64,000 nt of DNA from Rhododendron vialii (taxonomy: Eukaryota; Streptophyta; Magnoliopsida; Ericales; Ericaceae): contig NC_080557.1 in the NCBI RefSeq assembly GCF_030253575.1, positions 47,785,501-47,849,500 on the forward strand. Direction: 5' to 3'. Made by a program: the position numbers and the translations under genes. Under the pieces are notes generated by a model. It saw only the letters and a program-made list of their open reading frames with translations. It was not told the origin of the DNA and did not search any database. Each line of letters opens with the position of its first letter. Within the stretch, counting starts at the first letter, position 1. Of the stretch, positions 13,203 to 52,734 are shown piece after piece.

Positions 13203-13250
13203 TAGAAAAAAATCCAGAATTACGGGAGCTTTTCTTTGTTTCCAGTGACG

Positions 13251-16200
13251 ATGCCTCCAAGGCGGCGACGGACGGTTGAGGATGTCACGTTGCATGACGA
13301 GCTTGCTGAATTGCGGCAGTCTAATCAAACGCTTCAACATATGATGAATGAAATTCTCCAAAGGATGCAAACTTTTCCCTGGCGAAGTCGAAGAAGTCAC
13401 TCTAGAATTTCAGGAAGTCAGAGTGATATGGATGAGGGATCTGATTCGTTTAGTTCGAAAGAAAATTCAGAAGCTGCTTTTGGTGATCGTTGGGCCATGG
13501 AACGATTGACGAGAGCTCTTAAAGGAACAGATAGGAGTATTCAAGTTCACGTGCCGGACTTCGAAGGAAAGTTAGACCCTGAACAATATTGTGATTGGGT
13601 TGCCTCTTTGGAAGCATTTTTTGAATGGAAAAACATGACAGAAGAGAGAAAGGTGCAGTTTGTGGCTACAAAATTGAAGGGCCATGCCTTGGTTTGGTGG
13701 CAGCAATATCAACGAAGTCGAGATAGAAGAGGAGTCCCGAGAGTTGGCACATGGGCAGAGATGAAGTTGAAGTTGGATGAGAAATTTCTTCCTCTAGATT
13801 ACTCTCATTCCTTGTACCAAAAGTTCCACCGTCTTCGCCATCACAATGAGCAATCTGTGGCTGATTACACGAAGCAATTTTACAAGTTGTGGAGTCGCAT
13901 TAATCTAATGGAGACAGATGATCAACTTGTTGCTAGATACACAAGTGGTTTGAAACTCAACCTTCAAGGGGAGTTAATGATGCATCCCATCCATTCACTT
14001 GAAGAGGCATATCAGATGGCGCTTAAAGCAGAAGAAAAGGTTAAATGGGCTCCTTTCGGAAAAGGTGACACTAGTAAAGCTTTGAAAGGGAAGACGGTTA
14101 CCCAAAACAAGAAAAATTCAGCACCCAACTCTGAGCATCCAAACCCACATGCTGGAGGAGGAAAAAAGGACTTTGGTAAAGCTGAATCGTCTTCAAGTTC
14201 TAAGTGTTTCAGGTGTGGTGAAGCTGGTCATCGTGCTTATGAATGTCCTACCAAGAAAGCTGAGGTGAATTTTGTTCAAGAAGGGCAAGAAGAAGAAGAA
14301 GAGCCTATTTATGATGAAGAGCCTGAAGGTGGAATTGAAAGGGAGTATTGTGAACCTGAGTATGATGCCCAAAGTCTTGTGATTCAACAGGTAATGACTG
14401 TTCAAGAAAATGATAAGTGGCTCAAGCATAACATCTTCCGAACTTATTGCTTGGCCAATGGGAAAAAGTGTATCTTGATGGTTGATTCTGGAAGTGTAGA
14501 AAATATGGTGTCTAAGACAATGGTCGGGAAGTTGAAACTTGCATGTGAGTAGCATCCTAAACCTTACAAAGTATCATGGTTCAAGAAAGGAGGAGAGGTT
14601 TTGGTGACACAACGATGCCAAGTGAAATTCTCTATTGGAAAGTATGAAGATAAGCTCTACTTTGACGTCCTTCCAATGGATGCTTGTCACGTACTTCTTG
14701 GAAGACCATGGCAATATGATCGATTTGCTCAGCATGATGGGAGGAAGAACACCTACACACTTAAGAAAGGTGGGGTAACATTTGTGTTGAACCCTTTGAA
14801 GGATATCCCCACAAGTGTGGCATCCCAAGGCCCAGTTAGCTTGCTGTCCTATAGAGCTTTTGAACAAGTTTTTAGCAAAGAGAAGGTGGCATATGCTTTG
14901 GTGGCTGTAGGGGAAGATAAGGAAGATGCGAGAGATGTTCCTGAAGAAGTTTCAAGTCTATTCCGTAGATTCAAAGGCTTAGTTCTAGATGAATTACCTG
15001 CTCGCTTGCCACCTCTTCGTGATATTCAGCATCAAATTGATCTCATACCAGGTGCAATCCTTCCTAACTTACCTCATTATAGAATGTCACCAAATGAACA
15101 TGCTGAATTGGAAAGACAAGTTGAAGATTTGCTAAAAAAGGGACTGATTAAGGAGTCATTAAGTCCTTGTGCTGTTCCAGCCCTTCTAACACCAAAAAAA
15201 GATGGAACTTGGAGGATGTGTATTGATAGTAGGGCAACAAACAAGATAACTGTGAAGTACCGGTTCCCAATTCCCCGTCTTGATGACATGTTTGATATGC
15301 TTTGTGGTGCAAAGGTCTTTTCTAAAATTGACCTCCGGAGTGGATACCATCAAATTCCAATTAAACAGGGAGATGAGTGGAAAACAGCCTTTAAAACGAA
15401 GAATGACTTGTATGAATGGCTAGTCATGCCATTTGGGCTCTCTAATGCCCCAAGCACGTTTATGAGGTTGATGACTCAAGCTTTGAAGGACTTTATGGGG
15501 AAGTATGTTGTTGTTTACTTTGACGACATCTTGGTGTATAGCCAAGATAGAATTCAGCACGTCGAGGATCTGAAAAATGTGTTCAAAGTCTTGCATGACA
15601 ACCAACTTTACATTAACCTTAAGAAGTGCTCTTTTATCGCTGATCGAGTTGTATTTCTAGGTTATGTTGTGAGTGCAGATGGTATGCAAATGGATGAAAA
15701 AAAAGGTGAAGGCGATTCTTGATTGGCCGACTCCGAAAAGTTTTACTGAAGTGCGAAGCTTTCATGGCTTGGCTTCTTTTTATCGACGTTTCATCAAAAA
15801 CTTCAGCACTCTTATTGCTCCTATGATGGATGTCCTAAAAAATAAGGAGTTTTGTTGGGCTAAGGAAGCAGAAAAGAGTTTTCAACTTTTGAAGGCAAAG
15901 CTTGTGGAAGCTCCGGTGTTAGCACTACCCAACTTTTCAAAAACTTTCCAACTCGAGTGTGATGCATCCAACGTTGGTATAGGTGCTGTCCTAATGCAAG
16001 AAGGAAGGCCGATTGCTTATTTCAGTGAGAAACTAACTGATGCCAAAAAGAAGTATTCGACTTATGACAAGGAGTTGTATGCGATTGTGCAAGCCTTGCG
16101 ACATTGGGAGGAGTACCTCGTTGGTGTGGAGTTTGTTCTCTATTCAGACCATGAAGCTCTACGGTTTCTCAAGGCATAAAAGAAGCTGAATTCTCGACAT

Positions 16201-17812
16201 GCTGGCTGGGCATCTTACATGGAAAAGTTCAGTTTTGTTCTAAATCACAAAGCAGGTTCCTCTAACAAAGTTGCTGACGCTTTGAGTAGAAAATATAGCT
16301 TATTATCTGCTCTATCTTTCGAAATTGTTGGATTTGATCTCTTGCCAGAATACTATGCAGGGGACACCTTCTTTTCAAAGGTTTTACAAGAGCTAAGTGA
16401 TGGGAAAAGCCAAGATTATTTACTCATGAATGGGTATCTTTTCAAGGGAAATCAGTTGTGTGTTCCAGAGGGATCATTGAGGCTTTTTGTCATTCAAGAG
16501 TTGCATGGTGGGGGACTTGGAGGGCATTTTGGAAGGGACAAAACTGAATGGCTGGTTAAAGAACGCTATTTTTGGCCATCCTTGAAGCGTGATGTTGCTC
16601 GTTTTGTGCAAAGATGCTTGGTGTGTCAAAGGGCCAAAGGAGGAGTGCAAAATACAAGTTTATACCAGCCACTTCCTATCCCTAATGTCCCTTGGGAGGA
16701 TATTTCGATGGACTTTGTTCTAGGCTTGCCGAGAACGCAGCACGGGTATGATTGCATTTTTGTAGTTGTTGATCGCTTCTCAAAAATGGCTCACTTTATA
16801 CCATGCAAGAATGCCACTGACGCTTCCCATGTTGCTACTTTATTTTTCCGAGAGATAGTTCGTTTACATGGCATCCCGAAATCAATATATTGTATCAGAT
16901 CGTGATGTGCGATTTATGAGTCACTTTTGGAAGACACTTTGGAAGCTTTTTGGAACTCAACTTCAGTTTTCTAGTGCTTATCATCCTCAAACTGACAGGC
17001 AAACTGAAGTGGTGAACAGATCGCTTGGAAATTTATTGAGGAGTTTGGTCGGAGACCATCCAAAAAGGTGGGAGTTTGTTATTCCTCAAGCTGAGTTTAC
17101 TTACAATAGTTCTTTCAATCGATCAACTAAGAAGGCACCATTTGAGGTGATTTATGGCAGAAAACCCCATCAAGTTATGGATCTTTTGCCATTAAATAAC
17201 CAAGTTCGAGTTAGCATGGATGCAGAGGAGTTTGCTGCCCACATCAAAAGTATTCATGATCAAGTTCGAGAGCGCTTAAAGGAAGCTTCTAAGTATTACA
17301 AAACCAGGGCAGATGCACACCGAAGGAATAAAGAGTTTGAAGAAGGAGATCTTGTCATGGTTTATCTACGCAAGGAAAGATTTCCAGTGGGTTCTTATAA
17401 CAAGCTCAAGCAAAAGAAGTTTGGACCATGCCGAATAATCAAGAAGCTTAGACCAAATGCTTATCGTTTAGAATTGCCGCAAGGGTTCTCTATCAGTCCA
17501 GTTTTTAACATCAGTGACTTGTATGCTTATTATGGAGATGATGGTGGTGATTCCTTGAAGCTTGAAAACTTGCTTGCTTCACCAGAAAATTCACATCAAG
17601 AAATCATTGATGTATTGGATGTTCGTTCCACCACTACTCGTCGAGGAACCTATACGCAATATCTGCTTCATTGGACAGGAAAAGCACATTGTGAAGATGC
17701 ATGGGTTTCAGCACAAGAACTCAAGAAACTTGATGAAAGGCTTTGGGAAGATTTGGTTGCGAATTCTAGGAGGACTTCTTTTCCAGCGGAGGAGAATGAT
17801 GCAGGAGCATAA
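13251..17812 (+). pseudogene. gag-pol polyprotein of the gypsy element, broken
   Basis: The frame starts MPPRRRRTVEDVT. Gag core (DFEGKLDPEQYCDW, LKGHALVWW), CCHC zinc knuckle CFRCGEAGHRAYEC and the protease motif MVDSGS lie in 13251-14549. RT is in 14601-15720, with the catalytic YFDD at about 15516. RNase H follows ([11 protein letters not shown]), then the integrase HHCC finger (H..H..CLVCQRAK), integrase core (SMDFVLGLP, SDRDVRF) and a chromodomain-like end (YLLHWTG...EDAWVS). Four lesions are visible: a TAG at 14550-14552 after the protease, a one-base A-run frameshift near 15701, a TAA at 16177-16179 in RNase H, and a small AT insertion causing a frameshift near 16890 in integrase. The copy therefore cannot move on its own. 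The frame runs a few codons into the 3' LTR. Confidence 0.93.
17786..17796 (+). other. Polypurine tract
   Basis: GCGGAGGAGAA sits directly before the 3' LTR, at the expected place of the plus-strand primer. Confidence 0.7.
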
Positions 17813-29187: not shown

Positions 29188-30097
29188 TAGCAGCCATAGT
29201 TGGGAAGGTTTTTAGAGTGGTCTCTTATACTCCTGTTCTCAAGCTCGTTCTTGATCTTCCGTCGGGGTAAGTAAGATTATTCTTGTGGTTTTCTTACCTT
29301 GGAGTAGTAAAGTCTTTTTCGGGTGCCATCCGTGCTTTAGGCGTGAAGTGGTGTGTGGGTTGGCGTTGTGTGGTGCATGTATGGCGGTGTGGTGATTCAG
29401 TGCAAGAGGTGATTAGGTGATGGAGTTGTGGATGATTTTGATATTAACAGTTGCATGTAGAGGAGTTAAATGGATTTGGGTTTTGTTCTTGTGCTCCATC
29501 TACTTCTTAATTACTTCACTTATTATATTAGCATATTAATTAGTAATCTGCTTGTGAGGATTGAACTGGAAATTGTTATGGAAAAATTGGATGTAGAAAT
29601 TAAAATAGTGGCCGGTGTGTGCACGTGGGTTGGAGGCATGGAGTTTGGTTTCAGTTAGGGGTGGCAAATTGAACCCAGACCCATTAACAAACCCAGACCC
29701 ATCAACTAAAAAATAGACCCAACCCAACCCATTTATTAATTGGGTAAGAATGGGTCCAAACCCAACTAACTCATTATTAGTTGGGTCTTAATTGGACATT
29801 AATTGGGTTAACTAAAATGACCCAATGGGCATGAAAGTAACCCATGAAAAATTTTCATCCTTCACCAGATTCCCAATGAATGCAGCCCACCCCTTACCAC
29901 GCCGCCACTGCCGCCGCCACCACGCCACCCTCACCACCCCACCACCACGCCACCACCACCGCTGCCGCTGCCGCCGTCTCCGTTACCACCACCACCGCGC
30001 CACCACTCTCTCTCTCTCCCTCTCCCTCTCCCTCTCCTAACTTCTTTGTGCTCATGTTTGGGAACTGAAGTACAGAAGGCCCACTTATGCGCTGAGC

Positions 30098-30140
30098 ATC
30101 CCACATCGGAAATCCAGAAAGAGAACTTTCTGTATTTAAA
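30098..30140 (+). promoter_or_regulatory. Plant snRNA-type promoter: USE plus TATA at Pol III spacing
   Basis: The upstream sequence element ATCCCACATCG is at 30098-30108 and the TATA-like TATTTAAA at 30133-30140, 24 bp apart. In plants that spacing marks RNA polymerase III genes of the U6/U3/MRP class, whereas about 34 bp marks Pol II. Transcription should start about 30 bp downstream of the TATA start. Confidence 0.8.
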
Positions 30141-30162
30141 TGAAATGGCCAGAGTTACTCCA

Positions 30163-30503
30163 ACACGGGCCACAAGACGACGTGAACGGGTTCCGGCTCT
30201 GACTTTGTTCAGGGCCTTGCCCAGGAAAGTCCCCGGGCCGTTACACCGCAGAGATGCTCGGAAACGAGTGAGCTTCGAGCGTGGAATCCGATTTGCACTT
30301 GTGCGAATGGGCTGAGACGGGTGTGGAGCCTTATGGATTCAACGCCGGAGTGAGCGTGGAATCCGATTTGCACTTGTGCGAATGGGCTGAGACGGGTGTG
30401 GAGCCTTATGGATTCAACGCCGGAGTGGACTTGGCCGATTGCACAGTTATTCACGTGGCCCGATTGGGCTAACTGAACGTGGCTTACGATCTTGTGGCCA
30501 TTC
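30163..30503 (+). ncRNA. RNase MRP RNA gene copy with 75-nt internal duplication
   Basis: RNase MRP RNA is the RNA core of a nucleolar RNP that cleaves pre-rRNA. Several things support the call. It has the USE/TATA promoter at Pol III spacing. CR-I, AGGAAAGTCCCCGG, at 30221-30234 is the P4 5' strand shared by RNase P and MRP. A following hairpin GCA-GAGA-TGC matches the GARA-type loop of MRP P8. A perfect 9-bp P1 helix pairs GGCCACAAG (30168-30176) with CTTGTGGCC (30491-30499). A CR-V-like GAACGTGGCTTACG precedes P1, and a T6 terminator follows. Removing one copy of the 75-nt repeat gives about 265 nt, close to known plant MRP RNAs. The transcript start is inferred. RNase P RNA is the alternative, but the hairpin favours MRP. 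Confidence 0.8.
30277..30426 (+). repeat. Perfect 75-bp tandem duplication inside the MRP RNA gene
   Basis: 30277-30351 and 30352-30426 are identical, each starting GAGCGTGGAATCC and ending AACGCCGGAGT. The duplication lies between CR-I and CR-V, in the variable MRP-specific domain, so P1 and P4 are not disturbed. Confidence 0.97.
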
Positions 30504-30509
30504 TTTTTT
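30504..30509 (+). terminator. Pol III terminator
   Basis: A run of six T directly after the closing strand of P1 and CATTC. Confidence 0.75.
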
Positions 30510-32161
30510 CAATAACCAAATTCCTCGAGTTTGAGCTTCGAATATATATATTTTAGGAAAACTCGTTACGTTTTTAAAGCAAGCTTGAAAAAGTTATTAT
30601 TTGTGCAACTTATGATTATCAAAAAAGTTCAAGCTAATTGAGGTCAAATCATGATCCAAGCACATTTAAACTTGTGAGGGTGGTGGCGGCGGCGTTGTGG
30701 TGGTGGCGGTAGCGATGGTGGTGACCGCGGTGAGGGAGGTGTGGTGGTGGCGGCGGCGGCGGTGAGGGTGGTGTGGTGGTGGTGGTGGTGGCGACGGCGG
30801 TGAGGGTGGTGTGGTGGTGGCGGCGTTGTGGTGGTGGTGAGTAATTGGGTTAATGGGCGGATCGGGTTTGATTTTAAATAAATGGGTCGGGTTGGGTATG
30901 GGTAATTGAACTCATAATTAATGGGTCTATATGGGTCAATGACCCATTAAAGACCCAACCCACTTATAACTTGCCCATTTTGACCCAAACCCGCCCATTT
31001 GACACCCCTAGTTTCAGTGGTGGTGATTACAGAGGGTAGTAATTGGGATTAGGCTAAGTTTTAGGTATTCTGTATCTACAAAGTGTATACTTGCGTAGTT
31101 AGTCATTTTGTGCTTTGTTCTTTTATTCAGGTTAGCATCTTTTTGAGCGTTCGATTGCATTACTTTTGGGCTCAGGTGAGTAGTTAAGTATGTTACGTAT
31201 TTTCAAAAAATCCCTGTGTCCCTTAAAAGTATTTCCTTCAGAAATTTATGTGAATGTTATTCGGAGACTCAAAATTATTTATAAGTTATTCTATAAATTG
31301 GCATGCGATGAATTTTATGAGATCAATTGTTAATATTCTTTTTGGTGAGAACTTGGTGGATATTAATAGGAACATTTATTTCGAAAGTCCAAGGAAATTA
31401 TTCCTTCTCGTGTTGGTGACCCTGACCATTGGGGAAAAGACCGTATTAGGCTTGTGACTCTAATGCTCAACGGCTTTCTTTCGCCGGATCGTCCTAGGGA
31501 AAAGTACCACGGGCTGCCAACCCTGGTGACTCTAAGTTCGATATTGGATCCAATTTTGACGAGATTTATTTTGGTCATGGTACTGTTTGATTGTGGTTCC
31601 CCATTGTTGATAGAGTTAATGTTGTGATCACCACCAAGAATATTTATTGGTTAAATGCTTCATTAATTAATTTATTATTCTGCTGGACACCTCGTATGCC
31701 AAATTATGATTAATGGTAAATTATTTTAATCTCCGTTTTCAACTTTATTTAATATACATACTTGCTATTCACTGAGCTCGTCAGCTGACGGATTTATTCC
31801 AACTTCTCTTTCAGGCAAGTTGGGAAGTTAGGCAAGGACTCTGGCTGTATCTCAAGGATTTCTTTTTATTGACCTCCATAGGATGTTGCATTTAGTATAA
31901 AGATTTTAATTATCGCTTCTGCACTTTGTATAGCTTTTGAGTAAAATGGAATTACTATATTGTTGGAGGTAAATTTTTATTGGCTAGTTCATGGGATGGT
32001 TTAGCCCCATGTTTATGACTGGGATTTATTTGGTTTTGGATTTATTTAATAAAAAAAATCATTGTTGTTTGACAACTTATTTTATTCTAGGTTACGTATT
32101 CCATGAGTTGGCTTTGTGGTACACGGCCGGTCACTTCTCATTTTTGGGGTGTGACAATGAG

Positions 32162-39513: not shown

Positions 39514-40695
39514 AGTGTAGTTAAATGTTGGTGATATCGATAAAGGTACGCTTCTTGCATCTATCTGCTGGTTCTTGTGGAAAGCCCGCAACAGAGCCCA
39601 TTTTGAAGGCCAAGGTTGGGATAGCGTCAAGATTTTGGAGAGGACTTCTGAGCTTTGTTTGGAGTTTAAGGATGCAGTAGCTTCTTCTCGCTCCTCCTCT
39701 GCAACCTCTTCCATAACTTCTCCTCCTATGTGGCATTTGTCGCCTGTTGGTGCTAAGAAGTTCAATGTTGATGGCGCTGTTGGTAGGAAAAATGGTTTTG
39801 TTGGTGCTGAGATTGTGGCTCGTGATCATTCAGGCCATATCTTGGGTACGGTATCTATTCCATTCCCTGGTTTTTTATCTCCAAGAGCTGCTGAAGCGTT
39901 GGGTTTTCATGAAGTTTTGGTTATTGCTGCGAACAAAGGCTTTTCTAACATTATTATTGAAGGCAACTCGCTTAAGATTGTTCAAGCACTTACTCAAGTA
40001 GGAAAATCAGTATCCGATTGTAGCACTATTTTCTTGGATTGTTTAGAGCTTCTTCCATTATTTTCCTCTTGTCTTTTTAAATATGTTAAACGCTCTTGTA
40101 ATAGGGTAGCTCATTCGTTGACTAAGTAATCTCTATTAGGCGTTAGATTAGAGAATTGAGGGGGTCCTACCTCCCAATATCTAGCTAATCTTGCCCTTGC
40201 TGATGTTAGGTCTTTGGTTAGATTAGAGAATTGGGGGGTCCTGCCTCCCAATATCTAGCTAATCTTGCCTAGGGGTGTACACGGGTCGGGCGGGGTTGAT
40301 TTTGACTCGAAACCCGACCTGACCATGTCGGGTAAAAATATTTAGGCCCACAAACCGAACCGCACAGGTGGTAAAAACCGTTCACGAGCCCGATTATTGA
40401 CTTCGGGGCGGGTTCGACCCAAAAACTGAACTTAACCTTCGGTCTGGCTAGGTCGGGTCAGGTCCGACCTCAGTAAGGAACGCACCAACCTGAACCCCGA
40501 ACCAAAATCTGATTTTTCACAGAAAGTAAACCCGCACCCGTCCGAATCACATGTTCGACTCGCCCGAGACCCTTCGGGTCGGGTCTGTTGGTTTTTTGCT
40601 CACCCCTAATCTTGCCCTTACTAATATTAGGTCTTCGGACCATTGTTCCTTTTAAATAATATCTCCAAATTTTTCGAGCAAAAAAAAATAAAAAT
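39514..40695 (+). mobile_element. 5'-truncated LINE tail with RNase H domain
   Basis: The open frame from about 39518 to 40129 reads TLLASICWFLWKARNRAHFEG, then KFNVDGAVGRKNGFVGAEIVA, AAEALGFHEVL, IIIEGNSLKIV and SCNRVAHSLTK, then TAA. That is the C-terminal RNase H-like domain found at the end of plant LINE ORF2. The acidic positions (D in NVDGA, E in AAEALG, D/N in EGNS) follow the pattern with the usual third-site change. Reverse transcriptase and endonuclease are gone. Downstream come a tandem repeat of about 75 bp, a nested hAT MITE, and an A-rich tail at 40679-40695. A possible imperfect target duplication is TTGATTGA at 39503-39510 and 40705-40712. Confidence 0.78.
40270..40608. mobile_element. 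hAT MITE inserted in the LINE tail
   Basis: 339 bp beginning TAGGGGTGTACACGGG and ending GCTCACCCCTA, flanked by the perfect 8-bp repeat ATCTTGCC (40262-40269 and 40609-40616). The interior is rich in CGGGTCGGG and CCCGACC motifs. It sits inside the second of two tandem LINE-tail units, and the first unit preserves the uninterrupted ATCTTGCCCTTGCTGATG. Confidence 0.9.
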
Positions 40696-49120: not shown

Positions 49121-52100
49121 ATGGCTCACTCATTCCCAGAGGAAGTACTAGAGCACGTGTTCTCCTTCGTCCACACCGACAAGGACCGCAACTCGGTCTC
49201 CCTCGTCTGCAAGTCCTGGTACGAGATCGAACGGTGGAGCCGGCGCCGGATCTTCATCGGCAACTGCTACGCCGCCAGCCCCGGGATCTTGATCCGACGG
49301 TTCCCCGAGGTCAGATCCGTGGAGATCAAGGGCAAGCCGCATTTCGCGGACTACAACCTGGTGCCTGAAGGGTGGGGTGGGTACGTGTACCCTTGGATCG
49401 TGGCCATGGCCAGGGCGTACCCGTGGCTGGAGGAGATTCGGCTGAAGAGGATGGTGGTTAGTGATGAGGCCTTGGAGTTGGTTTCGAGGTCGTTTAAGAG
49501 CTTCAAGGTTCTGGCTTTGTCGTCTTGTGAGGGGTTTACGACAGATGGGTTGGCCGCCATTGCCTCTAACTGCAAGTGAGTGTTCATTTCTTTTGTCTTT
49601 TAAAAGCCCTTTAGTCATACTTTTTAGAGCTTTAAAAATTTAAGTAAAAGCCAATTCTTTGGGACAAATTTTAGGAAATGCGTCTTTAATGGCATAATTG
49701 TAGATATTTGAGGAAGAAAATAGCCTTAAAAGTTTATGGGACATAGTAGTAAAGTTTGAATCTTGGACGTCTGGTGAAACTGTTGTGGAATGAACGATTC
49801 GTTGTTTTGGAAGATTCATTCTAAATAGATCTTGGGGTTTTAGACGAGATTTATAGGCATTGGCTTCAAAGTTTTTAGTGGATATTGCGGATTAGGGTTG
49901 TTTACAGATTTTGGTTTCTTTGCTTTTTGGAAAATCCTGGTGTCTGTAGGAATTTTTTTTTTTTGGGTTCCCGCAGTTGTGAATTTGGGGGAAATGAAGC
50001 AAAGATGGTTTATTTTGCCTTATCTGAGAGGTTAGAAAGTTTGAATCTTGGATGTGACGATGGAACTGTGTTGGATTGAGCGATTCTTTGTGTTTGGAAG
50101 TTTTTTTTTCCCTGATAGATCTTGGAGTTTTTGTCAATACAACAGAGATGGTTGATTTTTAGACGAGATGTGAATGCATTGGCTTATATATTATTGTGGG
50201 GGAAGCAGATTAAGGTTTCTTTGTTTCTTGGAGAATCTGGTTGCTTTGTGATACCATTCATATTCTTCCATCAGTCCTTTACTTTCTTTGAGTATGCGGG
50301 ATGGATCTTCTTTATGTGGGATTGTTTAAGGGTTGTTGGGGGGTTTCAGTGGTGGTCCTGGAGCGGAGTTTCGAAACTTTATGTTGTTTTATGTGGGTAT
50401 ATGATTGTTTTATTAATTGAAGGCTGTGTCCTTTGTGCGATTTTAAACGGTTAGAAAATGGAAAACAAATGCTGAATAACGACTGTACCAACCATGGTAA
50501 ATTTATTTCTGACAAGGAAAGGACAGTCTTTTCCTTCTCTTGATATTGCTGAGTTGCTAGACGGTTTGAATATGTTTATTGCTTTTCTTAACCAAAGTTT
50601 CATAGTTTTAGCGCATTTTAGTTGACGAGGACCATAAATGGGTTGAAGTACTTTTATTTGTATAGTGGTGTCACTATATTATTTCCAATGTGCGATGTTG
50701 AGCCGTTGTTTTCTTCGTGCAGAAATCTCAGAGAGCTGGATTTGCAGGAGTGCGATGTGGATGATCAGAGTGGGCATTGGTTCTGCCATTTTCCTGATAC
50801 CTTCACATCATTGGTGTCACTTAACATCGCTTGTATAGAATCTGATGTGAGTTTGCCTGCCCTAGAGCGCTTAGTGGCTAGGTGTCCCAACCTGAGGAGT
50901 CTCCGTCTCAACCGTGCTGTGCCGCTGGAGAGGCTTCCTAATTTACTCTGTCGTGCCCCTCAGCTGGTCGAGTTTGGGACCGGTGCCTATTCAGCTGAGA
51001 TCCGAGCCGATGTCCTTGTAAGCTTAACTACAGCTTTTTCAGGATGCAAGTATCTCAAGGGCCTTTCTGGGTTTTGGGATGTGGTTTCAGCTTACATTCC
51101 AGCAGTTCACACTCTATGCTCTGGACTGACTTGTCTCAACTTAAGCTATGCCAATATCCAAACCCCTGACCTTGGCAAACTAGTTAGTCTTTGCCATAAT
51201 TTGCAGCGCCTCTGGGTATGTTTAATCGTTTATGCTGATAGCTTTTGTTTTTTTTTTTCATCACCACTTCTTTATCTGGTTCATATATTATGAATTTAGG
51301 AGGATTTGAGATATTAGCCATTGCTGCCTCCTAAAAGCTAATGAATCAGCCTGAAATAGCTCTAACCTGTGGTGCACCATAATTGGACTTGGGGCCATTT
51401 CATTTGGTTTACTACGTTTGTTAGCAGTTTTGGTTTTTTAGTTCACTTGAAGTAAATGGTGGGTTTGGCGGGTGTGGACATTTTCTGGTATCTAGATTGT
51501 CCATCTCCCCTGCCATATTGCCTGTTCTTGTGGATGACTTTTCTTTTGTTAGGTTGTCTTGTCAAGATATTTTCAAGTTAGAGGGTTTTCGGATATAAGT
51601 CATTAGCTGCCCTCAAGCAGGTAATTAAGGCACCAGAGACAGGTTTAATTTAACTTTGACATTAATAGGATGTGGGGCCATTTCATTTGGTTTATCATGT
51701 GTCTTCACTTGAATCAAATTGGATTGTCTGGGCATATTCTGGTATGAAGATTCTATATCACCCAGCCATAATGTGTTGATCGGCCAAAATAATCTCTAAT
51801 CCCGTATTCCTTTTCTACTAGTTACTTTACTGTCATTACTACCATCTAAGAGCTATTAGATTTTTCCTTGGTTCAAATTTCAGGCGCGCAATGGTTTCCA
51901 TTTTGCACCCTTCAATTAATTAAGATATGATTGCAGGTACTGGATTACATTGAAGACTCTGGCCTTGATGCCCTTGCTGCATTTTGCAAGGATCTCCGAG
52001 AACTGAGGGTATTCCCATCTGATCCATTTGGTCCCGAACCTAATGTATCCTTGACAGAACAAGGCCTTGTATCTGTTTCAGAGGGATGCCCCAAGCTTGA

Positions 52101-52734
52101 GTCAGTTCTCTATTTCTGTCGCCAGATGTCAAATGCCGCACTTACTGCCATCGCTAATAACCGCCCTAACTTAACTCGTTTCCGCCTCTGCATCCTTGAG
52201 CCTCGTGCTCCTGATTACCTAACCCTGGAGCCGCTGGACACAGGTTTTGGAGCTATTGTTGAGCGGTGCAAGGATCTACGCCGCCTTTCGCTATCCGGTC
52301 TTCTAACAGATCGCGTGTTCCAGTACATTGGCACCCATGGTAAGAAGATAGAGATGCTTTCTATTGCTTTTGCTGGGGATAGTGATTTGGGGCTCCACCA
52401 CGTGCTGTCTGGGTGTGAAAGCCTGAAGAAACTAGAGATTAGAGACTGCCCCTTTGGAGACAAGGCTTTGTTGGCCAATGCTGCAAAGCTGGAGACAATG
52501 CGATCCCTTTGGATGTCTTCTTGCCAAGTAAGTTATGGAGCATGTAAACTACTTGGTCAGAAGATGCCAAGGCTTAATGTCGAAGTCATTGATGAGAGGG
52601 GACCACCTGATTCGAGGTCTGAAAGCTCTCTTGTGGAAAAGCTTTACATATATAGGACTGTTGCTGGGCGTAGGATGGATATGCCTAATTTCATATGGAA
52701 AATAGATGACAATGCGAATTTTGGGCTATCTTGA
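49121..52734 (+). CDS. TIR1: TIR1-type auxin receptor F-box protein
   Basis: Three exons: 49121-49575, 50723-51215 and 51937-52734, with GT/AG introns at the positions usual for this family, giving 581 residues (Arabidopsis TIR1 has 594). The F-box is at about residues 4-45 ([13 protein letters not shown]...[12 protein letters not shown]), followed by the leucine-rich repeat solenoid. Visible functional sites include [12 protein letters not shown] with the His that matches TIR1 His78, RLKRMVV (matching Lys113/Arg114, inositol hexakisphosphate contacts), [10 protein letters not shown], and the end [11 protein letters not shown]. The protein forms SCF-TIR1 in the nucleus, binds auxin and recruits Aux/IAA repressors for ubiquitination. 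The N-terminus [11 protein letters not shown] groups with TIR1/AFB1 rather than AFB2/3. The C-terminus is short (ending DDNANFGLS). It is regulated by miR393 through a site in exon 3. Confidence 0.96.
52493..52513 (+). promoter_or_regulatory. miR393 target site in TIR1 exon 3
   Basis: The bases CAATGCGATCCCTTTGGA at 52496-52513 are fully complementary to positions 1-18 of miR393. The site encodes the conserved ETMRSLW segment. In TIR1/AFB genes it directs mRNA cleavage and secondary siRNA production. Confidence 0.95.

Follow-up and report, generated by a model that had tools for sequence, protein, structure and literature searches.

A non-autonomous hAT-type element carrying an RNase MRP RNA gene copy in Rhododendron vialii

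Introduction

Studies of gene capture by plant DNA transposons mostly count protein-coding fragments. The locus described here raises the question of whether such an element can also take up a complete non-coding RNA gene, and of what becomes of that gene afterwards. A first-pass annotation had placed an RNase MRP RNA gene, complete with promoter, inside a hAT-like transposon, and had suggested that the element could spread MRP RNA copies through the genome. As set out below, the capture of a complete MRP gene is borne out, and the spreading of copies is not.

The window, by which is meant the whole 64,000-nucleotide stretch analysed (C1:47785501-47849500), belongs to a genome of 532.6 Mb in 13 contigs. 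Elsewhere in the window are a reading frame with a Tub-family domain (1764-2300, 1e-59), the reading frames of a Ty3-type LTR retrotransposon (13236-17812, with gag domains, RVT_1 and a chromo-like end spread over several frames), and a TIR1/AFB-like auxin-receptor F-box gene, apparently of three exons (49121-52734, with Transp_inhibit at 2.3e-27 in the first). The F-box gene and the USE-type promoter described below point to a plant. The features of the element are collected in Table 1.

Table 1. Positions in the window of the element, its cargo and the changes in the RNA gene copy
Feature	Position	Strand	Basis
hAT-type non-autonomous element (Pack-hAT), 1355 bp	29656..31010	+	paired ends, 8-bp duplication, genome family
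Left target-site duplication GTTTCAGT	29648..29655	.	single octamer in two empty sites
Right target-site duplication GTTTCAGT	31011..31018	.	exact copy of left octamer
Left arm, ACCCA-rich subterminal part then CCACC tract; common to many family members	29656..30005	.	left-end matches, query 1-351
Right arm, GGTGG tract then ACCCA-type subterminal part	30668..31010	.	right-end matches to query 1355
Captured host DNA, 94-97% identical to C7 MRP locus	30006..30667	+	sequence comparison
Upstream sequence element (USE) ATCCCACATCG	30098..30108	+	sequence
TATA box TATTTAAA, 24 nt past USE	30133..30140	+	sequence
RNase MRP RNA gene copy, 333 bp, or 258 bp once a duplication unit is left out	30167..30499	+	RF00030, 67.3 bits
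4-nt deletion site relative to both C7 genes; P8 without 3' strand	30254..30255	+	alignment, helix count
Two perfect 75-nt tandem copies; self-contained P12-like hairpin; single copy in both C7 genes	30277..30426	+	sequence, alignment
T6 terminator	30504..30509	+	sequence

The element and its insertion site

The element begins with TAGGGGTGGCAA at 29656 and ends with TTGACACCCCTA at 31010. It has the short terminal inverted repeats (TAGGGGTGGC / TAGGGGTGTC) and the 8-bp target duplication, GTTTCAGT on both sides, that characterize hAT elements. When the window was shuffled in 20-base blocks, 2 of 20 runs each produced one case in which a TAGGGGTG end had a partner and was flanked by an 8-bp repeat; the real window contains two such elements, 29656-31010 and 40270-40608. 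The shuffle control alone is not decisive, since element-like pairs do turn up in it. The second of these elements is hAT-type and MITE-like, runs from TAGGGGTGTA to CACCCCTA, and has an exact 8-bp duplication, ATCTTGCC.

The right flank of the element is a high-copy repeat, with 40 matches among those listed (the best 40 of 448 candidates); 9 of the 39 other listed matches start at base 1 of the flank. The two host-repeat copies fetched from among these 39, on C3 and C11, are empty sites, each continuing across the insertion point with a single octamer (GTTTTAGT and GTTTTAGC). On the right side they are identical to the window at 235/250 and 228/249 positions. On the left, the shared repeat extends only about 40 bases outward from the insertion and the flanks are unmatched beyond, so that identity over the whole left part is 180/329 and 169/329. 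The empty sites are better proof of insertion than the shuffle control. They rule out an RNA gene lying outside the element, as well as ends paired by accident, and with them the inverted ends and perfect duplication reported earlier hold. Judged on sequence, the interval is thus confirmed as a non-autonomous hAT-type element carrying an RNase MRP RNA gene, and the original observation is real. Within the arms, two Rfam matches were rejected as weak and below gathering: RsaA, with 32.4 of 50 bits, and MIR6135, with 27 of 99 bits.

The element family and its other cargo

The 27-base left end occurs 468 times in the genome at up to 3 mismatches (223 forward, 245 reverse), and its reversed control not at all. 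From the list of left- and right-end matches, 34 family loci were chosen and fetched. Paired ends with 8-bp repeats are present in 23 of these relatives (20 exact, 3 with one mismatch); of the other 11, 7 have no pair and 4 have a pair with mismatching flanks. The 23 relatives, an element on C13 (L014) and the window element make up the 25 elements used for cargo comparison. A stretch of at least 60 bases common to at most two others is found in 20 of them, and 5 have none.

One such stretch, in the relative L059, has a 95% match on C4 and two more (87% and 85%) within 160 kb of that; it has no Pfam match, and we take it to be a piece of a nitrate/peptide transporter gene. Another, in L069, contains a Stress-antifung piece (1.2e-7). 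The other six cargo stretches scanned against Pfam gave no family over the curated cut-off, and no Rfam RNA is over gathering in the 34 fetched relatives. The family is large, and no fewer than two further members have taken up fragments of other genes, which marks the element as a Pack-hAT.

The RNase MRP RNA gene

The covariance model RF00030 matches the forward strand at 30167-30499 over model positions 1-266, with 67.3 bits against a gathering threshold of 50 and an E-value of 1.5e-16 in the window. The window copy thus belongs to the RNase MRP family by score and by length. The promoter elements, the CR-I motif, the P1 helix (10/10 pairs) and the terminator described in the first-pass annotation are all found inside the element. 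Plant USE/TATA genes of the Pol III type have their TATA box about 23-24 nt after the USE and end in a T-run terminator. The sequence ATCCCACATCG at 30098-30108 is presumably the USE, to go by its consensus; the 24-nt spacing from it to the TATA box marks the promoter as Pol III type under the rule for snRNA-type genes, and a T6 run follows the RNA. A reverse-transcribed copy is ruled out, the promoter and both flanks being present.

The donor-like locus

The genome search with RF00030 gave three matches among those listed (the best 26 of 3940 first-look candidates), two on C7 and the window copy; with 26 of 3940 candidates scored, weak MRP copies could have been missed. The C7 matches are 262 nt with 83.4 bits (L012) and 260 nt with 77.9 bits (L013). 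The better of them, L012, is 94-97% identical to window 30006-30667 across promoter, RNA and 3' flank. It is a recognizable donor elsewhere in the genome, as is characteristic of Pack-TYPE elements, and on this comparison it is likely to be the donor of the captured stretch. Together with the Rfam match, this identity also rules out a chance resemblance to MRP.

At the donor-like locus (L012:1714-2541), the MRP gene and the gene encoding mitochondrial ribosomal protein L53 (PF10780, 3.2e-14) are arranged head to head, about 180 bp apart. No exact TAGGGGTG or CACCCCTA is present in 4001 bases of L012, and no pair of ends is found at 2 mismatches either, which rules out, within those 4001 bases, that the C7 locus is itself part of such an element. 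The RNAs of L012 and L013 agree at 224/259 positions and their flanks align poorly, as expected for genes under constraint.

Several fragments were also seen. A partial copy of the second C7 gene's own 3' part lies downstream of that gene (L013:1305-1391). On C6 (L016), there are two short pieces of the MRP 3' part (3052431-3052512 and 3052806-3052877), 79-82% identical to the window or C7; an MRP match over gathering was not found at this locus. An older duplicate of the L53 locus, 88% identical and without the MRP segment, is present on C11 (L100, 30278600-30280600), with the L53 start codon altered.

A second element with the same cargo

The C13 element (L014:1029-2018) belongs to the same family, is 990 bp long and is flanked on both sides by a different 8-bp duplication, GCGTAAAT. 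Its cargo comprises some 125 bp from the 5' end of the L53 coding sequence (roughly 41 mL53 codons) in antisense, a CT tract, a USE with one change (ATCGCACATCG) and the TATA box. Of the MRP RNA it has only the opening bases, GGGCCAC, and a GGTGG-type tract takes over from there. The L53 coding part was not found in the window copy. Among the 13 candidates, all of which were scored, no elements with the captured stretch were found besides these two.

Counted from the junctions, the two elements jointly cover 741 bp of the C7 locus (L012:1542-2282). The stretch represented consists of the entire MRP RNA gene with about 170 bp of its 3' flank, the promoter region that the two genes share and, in antisense, the first 41 or so mL53 codons. 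It is held between family arms in two differently shortened forms, at two sites with different 8-bp duplications.

It is very probable that a Pack-hAT element captured and moved this stretch of the MRP locus, and that the window copy is most likely a non-functional passenger. The simplest history suggested by the sequences is one capture and two insertions, followed by different deletions. A single ancestral element would have captured the stretch, either by abortive gap repair or through two neighbouring insertions mobilised as one. A hAT transposase acting in trans could then have moved the cargo element, and later deletions may have cost the window copy its L53 part and the C13 copy its MRP body. 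The claim that a hAT-like element captured a complete MRP gene with its promoter is well supported by the donor-like locus, the second cargo element and the empty sites.

The same pair of elements could instead have arisen if each had captured the C7 stretch independently, which we consider unlikely. The two cargoes overlap by only about 165 bp, and the element ends do not group the carriers together. In a tree of the ends (385 columns, 25 elements, 200 bootstrap trees), both fall among 14 unresolved rows, and they form a clade in 0% of the 200 bootstraps; the tree does not decide whether the two cargo elements are sisters, and their failure to group counts against a single capture. However, both elements belong to one subfamily and are nearest to each other, L014 being the nearest row to the window element by path (97% identical). 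Their left arms are in register up to the cargo, and both have C at 30149, where L012 has T. Two captures of one rare locus would also be less parsimonious.

It is highly improbable that the MRP gene was pasted by another route into a hAT element already inserted, and never moved with it. A single complete copy among the matches listed would fit such an event, but a portion of that stretch also sits in the C13 element, elsewhere in the genome and within a separate target duplication. Chance resemblance or an assembly artefact is scarcely credible as an account of the locus. The perfect 75-nt duplication within the RNA could be an assembly error, and element-like pairs do arise in shuffled sequence; against this stand the Rfam match, the donor-like locus at 94-97% identity, the second element and the empty sites.

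State of the window copy

Changes in the window copy were polarised at positions where both C7 MRP genes agree. A G>T change at 30208 disrupts one P3 pair, A>G at 30219 retains a wobble, and G>T at 30480 falls within AACGGGGCUUA. With the helices drawn on the C7 gene by the analyst, P8 has 0/4 pairs in the window copy versus 4/4 in both C7 genes, and the inner part of P3 has 6/7; P1, P2, P9 and P19 are complete. The core set of P1, P2, P3, P8, P9 and P19 is thus not intact. Single broken pairs prove little, as the second C7 gene misses pairs by the same count (P3 inner 5/7, P12 base 7/11, P12 arm a 7/8). At 30246-30247, the window agrees with L013, which places the change (to U-G pairs) in L012. 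In free folding of the P8/P9 stretch, P8 does not form, even with the L012 sequence, which also counts against decay, and free folding of the whole window RNA does not give the canonical MRP shape. The RNA also contains a perfect tandem duplication (30277-30351 and 30352-30426), a feature which, like the loss of P8, is absent from the first-pass annotation.

The window copy and L012 differ at 5/258 positions in the RNA and 9/301 in the captured flanks (Fisher p = 0.59), one of the 9 (30668) sitting at the very edge of the captured stretch. On these counts no constraint is visible, although 14 differences give little power and are compatible with weak constraint.

With P8 gone and the P12-like hairpin doubled, the window copy is most likely a non-functional passenger. 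It is MRP-derived and probably does not encode a working MRP RNA; to judge from its letters, it is probably a decaying pseudogene. The promoter, P1, P2, P9, P19, CR-I and the terminator are intact, as a working gene needs, and this counts against decay. The copy may still be transcribed by Pol III.

It is very unlikely that the transposed copy serves as an additional functional MRP gene in which the doubled hairpin and the lost P8 are tolerated. The USE, the TATA box, their spacing and the T6 run are preserved, as are P1, P2, P9 and P19, and the RF00030 score exceeds gathering. Against such a gene are the missing P8, the substitutions at 30208 and 30480, two positions at which the C7 genes match each other, and the lack of visible constraint. 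A related possibility, that the gene is still transcribed and that its RNA, with a second P12-like arm, acts as a variant MRP RNA or a competitor for MRP proteins, is unlikely. If it were true, the gene for an essential ribozyme would have been relocated by a hAT element in a state fit for transcription.

The proposal that the element could spread MRP RNA copies is not supported. Only the window copy lies in an element among the three matches listed (26 of 3940 candidates scored), the C13 element kept only the first RNA bases, and the window copy carries damaging changes.

Comparison with known systems

Although its gene probably no longer works, the element suggests that Pack-hAT elements can move complete non-coding RNA genes, here to another chromosome (C7 to C1), with a donor-like locus, a second cargo element and an empty site all within one genome. 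MRP genes and others like them may in this way change position or gain copies at the DNA level and take their promoter along. It also calls for caution, in that an Rfam match above threshold can be a transposon passenger.

The window copy resembles other RNase MRP RNA genes (RF00030) in its full-length match, USE/TATA promoter and T-run terminator, and differs from them in its 75-nt tandem duplication, its lost P8 and its position in a transposon. No title on MRP RNA in a DNA transposon was found among those listed from the open-access literature. In PlaNC-TE, a survey of 53 plant genomes, non-coding RNA genes overlap TIR elements (tRNA 192, snRNA 117), and in this respect the survey resembles the present case. 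It differs in that, of its 63 RNase MRP entries, 2 overlap transposons, both LTR and none TIR (PMC6146122).

Pack-hAT elements, and capture via the joint movement of neighbouring insertions, have been described (PMC8903248). The term 'tRNA' is absent from that text, and 'non-coding RNA' appears a single time, within the title of a reference. The window element shares with the Pack-TYPE elements described there its non-autonomous ends, the 8-bp hAT duplication, host DNA between conserved arms and member-specific cargo; the captured DNA described there is coding, whereas a whole Pol III RNA gene is captured here. The carrier is thus of an established type; to judge from the open-access literature, its load, a complete Pol III RNA gene, appears to be novel. 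The locus is a clean, unusual case of a known process.
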